NCBI GenBank assembly: GCA_021846275.1
Contig: JAJZBZ010000005.1
Span: 62,001 to 126,000 of the forward strand
Direction: 5' to 3'
DNA from: Acidobacteriota bacterium
GTDB taxonomy: Bacteria; Acidobacteriota; Terriglobia; Terriglobales; Acidobacteriaceae
Length of the DNA: 64,000 nt
Shown piece by piece: positions 50,775 through 56,584 of the stretch. Positions within the stretch are counted from its first letter, which is position 1. Every line of letters begins with the position of its first letter. The translations under genes and the position numbers were made by a program. The notes beneath the pieces are model-generated. The model worked only from the letters and a program-made list of their open reading frames with translations, ran no database searches and was not told the origin of the DNA.

Positions 50775-51164
50775 GTGTGCAAAAAATCAATTTCCAATAA
50801 TTCACAAAGTGTTAAGGTGTCCGCATCTCGGCAGGCAAATGTTTGTGATGTCCCAGACAATAAAGGGTTGAGAGTTAGCGTCAGGAACCTTAAAACCCAC
50901 GAGTTATACGAAGTAAGTGCAAAAAGCATTTATCCAACATCGGTCATTTTTCTCCTGGAGCCGCTGGGAAAATTTGGCCACCCATTGACGATTGAACGAA
51001 ACCTGATCGGCGAAGATTTGAATCGCGCTCTGCGCCTGCAGCAACTGGGTTCCGCAGGCGTAGATATCGATTTGATCTTGCCCCAGGAGGGTTGGATAAC
51101 CAAAGCCGACGCGATTATTGATCGGGCGCTAAAGAAATTCGCGACGGTTCCTGAAGCTCTTTAA
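50775..51164 (+). CDS. Hypothetical protein, low G+C, probably acquired
   Basis: 129 residues from a GTG with GGAGG 9 bases upstream. Base composition and codons (AAA, AAT, TTA, CAA) clearly differ from neighbours. There is no signal peptide or membrane segment; the middle reads GLRVSVRNLKTHELYEV, a beta-rich start, and the C-terminus is helical. No family was recognised. It is convergent with thrS, on whose other side lies the equally low-G+C ApeA-like gene. Confidence 0.6.
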   Translation: MCKKSISNNSQSVKVSASRQANVCDVPDNKGLRVSVRNLKTHELYEVSAKSIYPTSVIFLLEPLGKFGHPLTIERNLIGEDLNRALRLQQLGSAGVDIDLILPQEGWITKADAIIDRALKKFATVPEAL

Positions 51165-51206: not shown

Positions 51207-53264
51207 TTATAGCTCAACGGAGCGGGTTTGGGTGAGCGTGGTGGCGCGGGTGAGGAAGTCGGTGAGCGGGATCGATCCCTGGTCGCCTTTGCCGCGTGTG
51301 CGGACGCTGACGGATTGGGATTCGGCTTCCTTGTCGCCCATGACGAGGACGTAGGGCGTTTTCTGGTTGGCGAAGTCGCGGATCTTGGCGTTCATCTTTT
51401 CGTTGCGGGCGTCGAGTTCGACGCGGAGGCCGGCGGATTCGAGCGCGGTCTGGATCTGGCGGGCGTAATCGTGGTGGCGTTCGGCGATGGGCACCAGACC
51501 GACCTGAACGGGCGCGAGCCAGAGCGGGAAGGCTCCGGCGTAGTGCTCGATGAGGACGCCGAAGAATCGCTCGACGGAGCCGAAGAGCGCGCGGTGGACC
51601 ATGACGGGCTGGTGGCGCGCGCCGTCTTCGCCGATGTATTCCAGCTCGAAGCGGGCGGGAAGGTTGAAGTCGAACTGGACGGTGGAAAGCTGCCAGAGGC
51701 GGCCGAGGACATCGACGAGCTTGACATCGATTTTGGGACCGTAAAAGGCAGCCTCGCCGGGGATGGTTTTGTAGACGATGCCTTTGCGGTCGAGCGCGCG
51801 GCGCAGGCCGCTGACGGCGAGCGTCCAGTTCTCGTCCGAGCCGGCGTAGTGGGCGCGATCGTTCTCGTCCCAGGTGGAAAGCTCGACCTGAAACTCGGCG
51901 AAGCCGAAGGTGGTGAGGACGGACTCGGCGAACTCGATGCAGGCGACGACCTCGTCCTCGATCTGAGCGGGGGTGCAGAAGATGTGGGCGTCGTCCTGGG
52001 TGAAGCCGCGCACGCGCAGCAGGCCGTGCATGGTGCCGGAGCGCTCGTAGCGGTAGACGTTGCCGAGTTCGGCGAGACGCACGGGCAGGTCGCGGTAGCT
52101 TTTGGGCGAGTTTTTGTAGATGAGGATGTGGCCGGGGCAGTTCATCGGCTTCAGGCGATACTCGGCGTCGTCGAGTTCCATCGGGGTGTACATGTTGCCG
52201 GCGTAGAAGCCTTCGTGGCCGGAGATTTTCCATAGCTCGCGGCGCATGACGTGGGGCGTGTAGACGAGCGAGTAGCCGCGACGCAGACACTCCTCGCGCA
52301 TCCAGTCTTCCATGACTTTGCGGATGACGCCGCCTTTGGGATGCCAGAAGATGAGGCCCGATCCGGCGACTTCCTGAATGCTGAAGAGATCAAGCTGTTT
52401 GCCGAGGACGCGATGGTCGCGTTTGGCGGCTTCTTCCAGGCGCGCGAAGTGGGCGTCGAGGTCTTTCTGGGAGAAGAATGCTGTGCCGTAGATGCGCTGG
52501 AGCTGGGGATTTTTTTCGTCGCCGAGCCAGTAGGCACCGGCGAGCGTGGTGACCTTAACGGCCTTCACGCGGGCTGTGGAAGGAACGTGCGGGCCACGGC
52601 AGAAATCGACGAAATGGCCGTTGCGATAGAAGCTGACCTCGTCGCCGGGCTGTGTGAAGCGGGTGACGAAGTGGGTCTTCATGAACTCGCCTTCGCGGTC
52701 GAATTCGGCCAGCGCCTCGGCGCGCGGGCGCGTCTCGCGGACGAAGGGTTCGTTGCGCGCGATGACCTCGGCCATCTTCTGCTCGATGGCGGCGAGGTCG
52801 TCGGGCGTGAAGGGCTTTTCGCGGTAGAAATCGTAGAAGAAACCGGAGTCGGTGGCGGGGCCGTGGCCGAGTTTGGTTTCAGGAAAAAGCTCGAGCACGG
52901 CGGTGGCCATCACATGCGCGGCGGAGTGGCGGACGACGGCGAGCGCTTCGGGGTCTCGTTCGGTGACGAGCGTGAGGCGCATGTCCTCGGTGAGCGGCGT
53001 GGCGAGATCGACGAGGCGAGGCGCGGTGGCGCTCGATGCCGCGTACATGGCGGCGTCAGAGGATGCGGCTGCGGCTGCGGCGTTTGTTGTGGCGGCGGAT
53101 TCGGTGGCGGATTCCGTGGTCTGGACTGGCTCGATGCGCGCGACGACGCAGACGGCGGCCAGGCGCGGCGAGATGGACTCGGCAATCTGGAGTGGAGTGG
53201 TTCCGGCGGCTACGTGGCGCACCGCGCCGTCCGGCAGGTGGACCGCAATCTGATGTTCGCTCAT
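51207..53264 (-). CDS. thrS: Threonine-tRNA ligase
   Basis: 685 residues. Charges tRNA-Thr. A TGS domain (residues 1-45, HLPDGAVRHVAAGTTPLQIA) is separated by an Ala/Ser/Thr-rich insert (about 48-84) from the editing domain (VVRHSAAHVMATAVLELF with the HxxxH motif, FCRGPHVPST). The class II core has GLIFWHPKGGVIRKVMEDWM, zinc Cys in KPMNCPGHILIYK, YRYERSGTMHGLLRVRGFTQDDAHIFC and VMVHRALFGSVERF. The anticodon domain follows (LVPIAERHHDYA, LVMGDKEAE). No T-box was seen upstream. Confidence 0.96.
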   Translation of the reverse strand: MSEHQIAVHLPDGAVRHVAAGTTPLQIAESISPRLAAVCVVARIEPVQTTESATESAATTNAAAAAASSDAAMYAASSATAPRLVDLATPLTEDMRLTLVTERDPEALAVVRHSAAHVMATAVLELFPETKLGHGPATDSGFFYDFYREKPFTPDDLAAIEQKMAEVIARNEPFVRETRPRAEALAEFDREGEFMKTHFVTRFTQPGDEVSFYRNGHFVDFCRGPHVPSTARVKAVKVTTLAGAYWLGDEKNPQLQRIYGTAFFSQKDLDAHFARLEEAAKRDHRVLGKQLDLFSIQEVAGSGLIFWHPKGGVIRKVMEDWMREECLRRGYSLVYTPHVMRRELWKISGHEGFYAGNMYTPMELDDAEYRLKPMNCPGHILIYKNSPKSYRDLPVRLAELGNVYRYERSGTMHGLLRVRGFTQDDAHIFCTPAQIEDEVVACIEFAESVLTTFGFAEFQVELSTWDENDRAHYAGSDENWTLAVSGLRRALDRKGIVYKTIPGEAAFYGPKIDVKLVDVLGRLWQLSTVQFDFNLPARFELEYIGEDGARHQPVMVHRALFGSVERFFGVLIEHYAGAFPLWLAPVQVGLVPIAERHHDYARQIQTALESAGLRVELDARNEKMNAKIRDFANQKTPYVLVMGDKEAESQSVSVRTRGKGDQGSIPLTDFLTRATTLTQTRSVEL

Positions 53265-53417: not shown

Positions 53418-54695
53418 TCACAAAGGCTGATACATTTTTGACTGATAAAGGATTGGCTCGCGCAGAATGGATTCATCGATCCCGAGTTGAAGCAACATGA
53501 CGCACCGAATGAGCGCTTGCATCTGCTGATTGAGAAAGAACAACTCGCTCCAGTCCTTTACGACGTGATCGCTTTGGTTGAGTCCAAGATGTGTGTAAAA
53601 GTCCCGGGTATCCACAACTTTCTTGGCGAAATCCTCTTTGCTGCCAACCAGATTGACTGCGAAGTTCGGAGTCAACATATCGTAAATTTCTTTAAGTCGC
53701 TGCGCGAACTTTTTGCTCGACCCGCCTTGGATCCGGTTGAACCCCTCCAGCGCCTGGGCGAGGCTTAGAAACTCGGTTTCAGCGTGAACCGAAGTTTTTC
53801 TCAGCATTCCGAGAAGTGTTTTTTCGACAGGGCGTTTCTCTTTCGGAACAGCGAGCCACTTGTCCAGCGCACTGCTAAGCTTGTCACTACCGCATTTTAT
53901 ACATTTCGAGATATCGAATTTCTGATCGCGTTGCAGTGTCTTGTAAACAACCCATCCGACCTTGTCATCTTTGAAGAGTTGAAAACGTTTCAAGCTAATT
54001 GAGGTTCCGAGGATCAATGCAAAAAAGTTTTCAATACGCGACGCGATGTCGATGTACCACTCGAGCGACTGCGCAGAAGCTGGAAGTACTCGCACTCTTG
54101 GTATGGACTTGACCGTGGCCTTCTTCTTAAATACTGCTCCTCCGCCGCTGAACACTTCGCAAATAATTTCTGCGTCTAGCGGCTCACTTCTGAAGCTGAA
54201 TACATTCGAGGCTTTGGAGGGTGAACTATAAGTTGTCCCTTCACTTTTCCAATCGAAGCTCCACGGAGTTGGCAGCATTCGATGGATTTTTGTAAAGAAA
54301 AATCCTGCACCATCGACTTGTTTTGCTTCGAGCGAATCAATCTGCATTCCAAATACTGCGGCATTCACGCGGTAGTTCTGATTTGTAATTTTCCTATTCG
54401 TCGTGTAATCGGTCAGGCCCCCTTCGTTCAGCATGATGGCTTCGAAGAGCGAGCAGTCACCTTCCTGCGTGAACCCCACGAAGCAATTGACTCTTGGACG
54501 CGTCCCTGGTCCCATAGTAGCGAGATACTTGCTCATATCTCCCGGAAGAGTCGGACCGTAGTCTGGAGCTGTCGATAGCGTGACCTTGCCCTTTTTCACG
54601 ACAACCGTTCCAGTGAATTTGTCGTCCGGCGCTGTCGGCTGCCAAAACGCGCCTATTTTTTCAAAGGTGTCCATTAGCTTGATTTTTTTCGCCAT
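53418..54695 (-). CDS. ApeA-like HEPN-domain anti-phage candidate
   Basis: 425 residues. N-terminal beta-rich region (FWQPTAPDDKFTGTVVVKKG, about 15-230) resembles the ApeA N-terminal domain; the C-terminal helical region carries the HEPN RNase motif R364-DFYT-H369. This is the organisation of ApeA, a single-gene abortive-type defence protein thought to cleave RNA. The assignment rests on motif and architecture by eye, not on a search. Base composition is low-G+C and the Lys/Asn/Phe content differs from flanking thrS and pyrG, suggesting transfer. GGAGAG precedes the ATG; an extended -10 (TGATATAAT) lies at 54723-54731. Confidence 0.72.
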   Translation of the reverse strand: MAKKIKLMDTFEKIGAFWQPTAPDDKFTGTVVVKKGKVTLSTAPDYGPTLPGDMSKYLATMGPGTRPRVNCFVGFTQEGDCSLFEAIMLNEGGLTDYTTNRKITNQNYRVNAAVFGMQIDSLEAKQVDGAGFFFTKIHRMLPTPWSFDWKSEGTTYSSPSKASNVFSFRSEPLDAEIICEVFSGGGAVFKKKATVKSIPRVRVLPASAQSLEWYIDIASRIENFFALILGTSISLKRFQLFKDDKVGWVVYKTLQRDQKFDISKCIKCGSDKLSSALDKWLAVPKEKRPVEKTLLGMLRKTSVHAETEFLSLAQALEGFNRIQGGSSKKFAQRLKEIYDMLTPNFAVNLVGSKEDFAKKVVDTRDFYTHLGLNQSDHVVKDWSELFFLNQQMQALIRCVMLLQLGIDESILREPILYQSKMYQPL

Positions 54696-54722
54696 ATTCG
54701 CTCTCCAGGCAGTTGCGGCTGA

Positions 54723-54731
54723 ATTATATCA
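54723..54731 (-). promoter_or_regulatory. Extended -10 promoter of the ApeA-like gene
   Basis: On the minus strand TGATATAAT, a consensus TATAAT with the TGn extension, 27 bases before the ATG. No good -35 at 17 bases, as expected for extended -10 promoters. Confidence 0.6.

Positions 54732-54787: not shown

Positions 54788-56584
<1,797 letters not shown>

Follow-up and report, generated by a model that had tools for sequence, protein, structure and literature searches.

A divergent ApeA family member with a shortened HEPN domain in the thrS–pyrG gap of an Acidobacteriota genome

In the 64-kb stretch of DNA that we analyzed (hereafter, the window), a gene of low G+C content lies between thrS and pyrG. 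This raises the question of what the gene encodes and how it came to stand in such a context. The first-pass annotation had read it as an ApeA-like HEPN defence gene, acquired horizontally and inserted among housekeeping genes.

An ApeA-like gene between thrS and pyrG

The ORF (53418–54695, minus strand) starts with ATG and encodes 425 amino acids, and Pfam backs the names of both flanking genes. These are thrS on the left (51207–53264, minus strand; domains tRNA-synt_2b, tRNA_SAD, and HGTP_anticodon) and pyrG on the right (54911–56584, plus strand, with the ATG at 54911; domains CTP_synth_N and GATase), with no companion gene between them. The G+C content of the ORF, 0.483, is the lowest among the 42 ORFs of at least 150 amino acids in the mechanical ORF list (the other 41 range from 0.594 to 0.71), and its GC3, 0.555, is likewise the lowest, so that the earlier remark on low G+C holds for both measures. 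Short plus-strand ORFs from the same list overlap the gene.

The AT-rich extended −10 element noted in the first pass is a perfect TGnTATAAT. This element, TGATATAAT (54723–54731, minus strand), lies 27 bp upstream of the gene and is the single exact occurrence in the window, with 0.05 expected; five of 100 shuffled sequences held one. A sigma-70 scan, which needs a −35 hexamer, does not list TGATATAAT and gives it no −35 partner; the one site reported by the scan in this region lies elsewhere and is no better than chance. A Shine-Dalgarno-like GGAGAG (54701–54706, minus strand) is found 5 nt ahead of the ATG. The gene may have its own promoter.

The search with ApeA N-terminal and HEPN profiles that had been proposed as a check exceeded both curated Pfam cut-offs, and the ApeA-like architecture was borne out. 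The predicted sensor half, ApeA_NTD1 (PF18862), occupies residues 12–255 (53931–54662, minus strand) and scored 68.9 bits (E 6.6e-19) vs the cut-off of 25.5. The HEPN domain spans residues ∼303–408 (53472–53789, minus strand); the HEPN_Apea profile (PF18739) matched residues 321–408 with 56.6 bits vs the cut-off of 24.4, its positions 48–134 of 136 being aligned. A third Pfam match, z-alpha, fell under its own cut-off, and the NCBIfam search with the window protein yielded no match. Two PADLOC families, PDC-S58 (E 1.1e-20) and Cas13-ApeA (E 1.2e-15), matched as well, their best stretches spanning only the HEPN part; PDC-S58 is the label of a candidate system.

The HEPN domain contains a putative RNase motif of the R-x4-H type, R364-DFYT-H369 (53589–53606, minus strand), whose residues the first-pass annotation had numbered exactly. 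R-x4-H is present in all 29 aligned members, two of which are unbroken pieces of broken genes; this alignment omits L075, L064, L073, and short pieces, as well as L079 and L080, which are identical to L057 and L058. In a separate 17-row alignment, with ten rows removed as duplicates or as shorter than 300 amino acids, both arginines (R321, which closes the first HEPN helix, and R364) and the histidine are found in 15 rows. At the R321 position, L101 has S and L103 has T. Of the 27 rows extending to W18 in the N-terminal half, 26 have W there and L102 has S. Among clade relatives, 40 positions show a single residue in every sequence that covers them (six or more of eight); the window protein holds 37 of these, at a mean pairwise identity of 0.33. 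We also considered a CxxC (residues 265–268) as a zinc site and rejected it, since C265 occurs in no relative and C268 in only two of 16 rows. Judged by its sequence, the window gene is a new, divergent member of the ApeA family.

The shortened HEPN domain

One feature of the gene was unexpected and is absent from the first-pass annotation, namely, the compact HEPN domain. The distance from R321 to R364 is 42 residues in the window protein, compared with 72–86 in 25 of the 29 aligned members. The junction at residues 322–331 (53703–53732, minus strand) lacks ∼40 residues that in relatives are predicted to form a helical hairpin. The L058 model folds the additional residues into two helices, 329–346 and 350–364 (block pLDDT only 54–61), neither of which is present in the window model. 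Compact spacing was also observed in L076 (43 residues), L074 (46), and L008 (35, or 31 in the 17-row alignment, the only one where its R321 equivalent is aligned). All four compact members are from Acidobacteriota; L008 is distant, compact in both alignments, and has an open frame. The hairpin is common in the family, and still we do not take it as defining for ApeA. The part of the open-licence literature covered here does not mention a compact HEPN domain, which is weak evidence of absence, as the main ApeA papers are outside this scope.

The AlphaFold2 model of the window protein, built from three alignment rows, has a mean pLDDT of 50.9, with the N-terminal half mostly below 50; the HEPN part is more confident, with block pLDDT 65–86 across residues 331–410. 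With the full model as query, Foldseek returned nothing that reached E 0.001. In a second structural look at the Foldseek list, 11 of the 12 top rows were HEPN-type, with Z-scores of 5.0–6.2, a range that helical bundles reach by chance. HepT-type toxins, AF_0298, a HEPN domain protein, and AbiV were recognized by title, and YutE, Csm6, and the toxin–antitoxin structure 7bxo are presumably HEPN-type too; the remaining row was an adenylyltransferase. HEPN folds aligned across the junction site. A sequence search for a relative of solved structure found no match with the single window protein and two chance-level matches only with an 8-row profile. The models support a HEPN fold of the window protein, short of proving it.

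In the tree, the window gene belongs to a nine-row clade (99/98) that includes L074 and L076, and, within it, to a four-row group (100/99) formed with L074, L058, and L075. L074, from genome G896, is 44% identical to the window protein over residues 68–423 and is also compact, although its N-terminal half is broken. L057 (an Acidobacteriaceae MAG) and L058 (an uncultured Terriglobus MAG), both of the same clade and each 31% identical to the window protein, have kept the hairpin. A single origin of the hairpin loss is not supported, as the four compact rows need four changes on the tree (3–4 in the bootstrap), with the window gene and L074 in an open fork and the inner order unsettled.

Both domains are complete in one frame in 18 of the 26 Acidobacteriota loci. 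The broken or partial ones are L006, L007, L064, L068, L072, L074, L075, and L076; four were flagged by a script rule, which passed L064, L074, L075, and L076 although a stop or frame change divides their domains. In L074, both a stop and a change of frame fall in the N-terminal half; L076 has a stop, and L075 retains the hairpin DNA with a frame change there. Draft-assembly errors may account for some of the breaks, and L006 and L007 may not be broken copies but distant or partial relatives.

The same data bear on a different reading, a decaying ApeA whose RNase was inactivated when the hairpin was lost in frame, either in this gene or in an ancestor, and which is turning into a pseudogene. 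We consider such decay unlikely, although the share of incomplete loci (eight of 26) is in its favor, and these eight include both compact relatives of the clade, L074 and L076. In addition, invariant positions of the clade are retained by broken relatives (31/34 in L074, 27/30 in L075, and 32/38 in L076) almost as well as by the window copy and by intact relatives (37/37 to 37/44); hence, this count reflects selection until recently rather than now, and is no guide to whether a gene works or was broken a short time ago. Against decay, the frame is open and is preceded by promoter-like and Shine-Dalgarno-like signals, R-x4-H and most of the clade-invariant positions are kept, compact spacing recurs in three divergent members (42, 43, and 46 residues) as well as in L008 with its own open frame, HEPN folds align across the junction, and some breaks in relatives may be assembly errors.

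A working compact ApeA is plausible as far as sequences tell, even with both compact clade relatives being broken genes. A more specific proposal, which we offer tentatively as a possibility, is that these proteins constitute a compact Acidobacteriota subtype of ApeA that lost the hairpin from its HEPN domain and is still functional; the hairpin would then be a regulatory or dimer-control element that has been replaced or dispensed with.

A variable gap and a patchy family

We then compared the locus with its counterparts. Genes thrS and pyrG are divergent and adjacent on one contig in five of the 15 genomes of the genus, where the gap between them has different contents. It is 1646 bp long and holds the apeA-like gene in the window genome; in G003, it is 310 bp, with only short ORFs (<100 amino acids); and in G005, G013, and G014 (1395, 2038, and 2289 bp, respectively) it holds an unrelated acyltransferase-3 gene. 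The right edge of the variable gap is a pyrG-proximal block (54821–54910, plus strand) common to the sister genomes, with blastn identity of 89.7–100% over 73–90 bp in four sister gaps. As these 73–90 bp are all that aligns between the genomes, neither clean insertion ends nor a target-site repeat could be defined; the gene came into a variable gap by gain or by replacement, with ends that cannot be placed exactly. Hence, the earlier term "inserted" stands by the gene content of the sister gaps, but not by clean ends or a target-site repeat.

The acyltransferase-3 gene is itself variable. In G005 (L042), it is one open frame of 378 amino acids, and in G013 (L045) and G014 (L044), where the protein is 56–63% identical to that of G005, the coding sequence breaks into two frames, in both genomes at one shared position close to a T-run. 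The gap of G014 also contains, beside this gene, repeated units with CATTCCCGCAGGGAATCTGCTTTTG that by eye are possibly REP-like. On the other side, past the 3′ end of thrS, we observed a low-G+C ORF of 129 amino acids (50775–51161, plus strand) without a Pfam match; a tblastn search (E 1e-3) of the 29 other thrS loci, most of which cover that side, did not detect it.

A match to pyrG was found in 14 of the 15 genus genomes, while the apeA-like gene is present in one of these 15, several of which are incomplete. By protein search, 1 of 61 relatives has the gene, as do 11 of the 398 genomes searched for the family and 5 of the 396 searched for the phylum; in the profile search, PF18862 was found in 9 of 349 class genomes and PF18739 in 11 of 396 phylum genomes. 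Such a patchy distribution and the low G+C content fit the acquisition claimed by the first-pass annotation, that is, horizontal gain in a housekeeping context, at the variable thrS–pyrG gap. A viral origin was rejected in view of the searches against 50,697 phage records (no match at E 1e-5), PHROGs (no match at E 1), and viral contigs (70 pattern matches, none confirmed).

The window as a whole also gave PADLOC matches; among the 25 of 57 families listed were a UvrD/GajB-type helicase, an RT-associated helicase, an adenosine-deaminase-type protein, and mad3, all of which we read as housekeeping paralogues. Defence genes were placed in the neighborhoods of at least three of seven relatives (75 of 88 neighbor ORFs covered, 25 of 55 families listed). 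These are type I and type IV restriction genes and PDC-S34 near L090; a CBASS-type phospholipase effector and a PDC-S37-like protein near L091; and AIPR/AbiU, together with a phage-integrase-like gene, near L057. In the same scan, L058, L088, L089, and L092 had no assigned defence gene, and L058 is adjoined by Fic and IS200-like transposase genes. Ten of 15 plasmid records were used (L011 and nine others). In the records of these nine plasmid relatives, the product is called a HEPN domain-containing protein and nothing more; several of the genes lie near integrases, IS elements, or toxin–antitoxin genes, and L102 near a restriction endonuclease gene. On a Bacillus subtilis plasmid, the ApeA-like gene (L100:2971–4389) is directly upstream of aimR/aimP, annotated as lysis–lysogeny pheromone genes, near the integrase gene yopP in a phage-like region.

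The position of the gene on the thrS strand, 153 bp upstream of thrS and with no terminator-like site listed on the minus strand, could also suggest that the HEPN RNase is ApeA-like but serves housekeeping or the stress response, for instance, tied to thrS by read-through. This seems very improbable, given that thrS has a match in 61 of 61 genomes of relatives vs one of 61 for the apeA-like gene, that relatives of the latter occur in other contexts, and that the Rfam search for an RNA leader or T-box before thrS produced no match.

Predicted mechanism and related systems

ApeA was reportedly described as an anti-phage system by Gao et al. in 2020. We consider it quite probable that the window gene is a horizontally gained, single-gene anti-phage ApeA that combines a sensor half with a HEPN RNase. 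Its product is most likely an infection-activated HEPN RNase, as predicted from the domains, the conserved motif, and some fold support. In this scheme, the N-terminal ApeA_NTD1 half would detect some sign of infection, upon which the HEPN domain, probably dimeric, would cut cellular RNA by means of R364 and H369 and so halt the infected cell before phage release. The best candidate trigger at present is deoxydinucleotides, perhaps freed by DNA degradation during infection, as suggested only by the title of an ApeA preprint of 2026 in the reference list of PMC13405049. The trigger, RNase activity, dimerization, protection, and activity of the compact HEPN domain are all parts that we infer.

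ApeA is named as a defence system in passages of PMC7699616 and PMC10952713. The 2013 HEPN survey (PMC3710099) lists the ApeA/BMEI1217 family with a "Yes" in a column that we take to mean a conserved motif, and describes ApeA-NTD1 as ∼300 amino acids of mainly beta strands, with several conserved aromatic residues and otherwise poorly conserved. PMC11514479 lists a locus of PDC-S58 in one strain of Streptococcus thermophilus.

Of the known systems, the window gene resembles ApeA in having the two domains over both cut-offs, the R-x4-H motif, and no companion gene beside it, while differing from it by the ∼40 missing HEPN residues; the likeness is judged by the Pfam profiles of the two domains. 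By description, it can also be likened to Tha from a Staphylococcus aureus prophage, an abortive anti-phage effector of the same HEPN R-x4-H RNase type, which, according to PMC11087260, demonstrates that such a protein can act as an infection-triggered RNase. Unlike the window protein, Tha is 301 amino acids long with no discernible N-terminal domain, is activated by tail proteins, is paired with an inhibitor whose gene overlaps in antisense, and is prophage-encoded, whereas the window gene lies between thrS and pyrG and matches neither phage records nor PHROGs. The least probable reading, a toxin of a HEPN-MNT-style toxin–antitoxin pair, has in its favor the HepT-type toxins among the best second-look structural matches and can be practically dismissed, as the neighbors are thrS and pyrG, with no partner gene or adjacent MNT antitoxin gene, and the large ApeA_NTD1 half matched over its cut-off.

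With an anti-phage ApeA as the preferred reading, the thrS–pyrG gap, whose content is of three kinds across five genomes of the genus, provides a small case of a defence gene that arrived alone, outside a visible defence island. Established as a defence gene, ApeA has been only thinly described, and a divergent acidobacterial branch with a shortened HEPN domain offers a comparison for identifying the parts that restrain the ApeA RNase before infection. If the compact subtype is real, it would be a natural deletion experiment on ApeA gating, and its members would perhaps have an altered trigger or RNA target.
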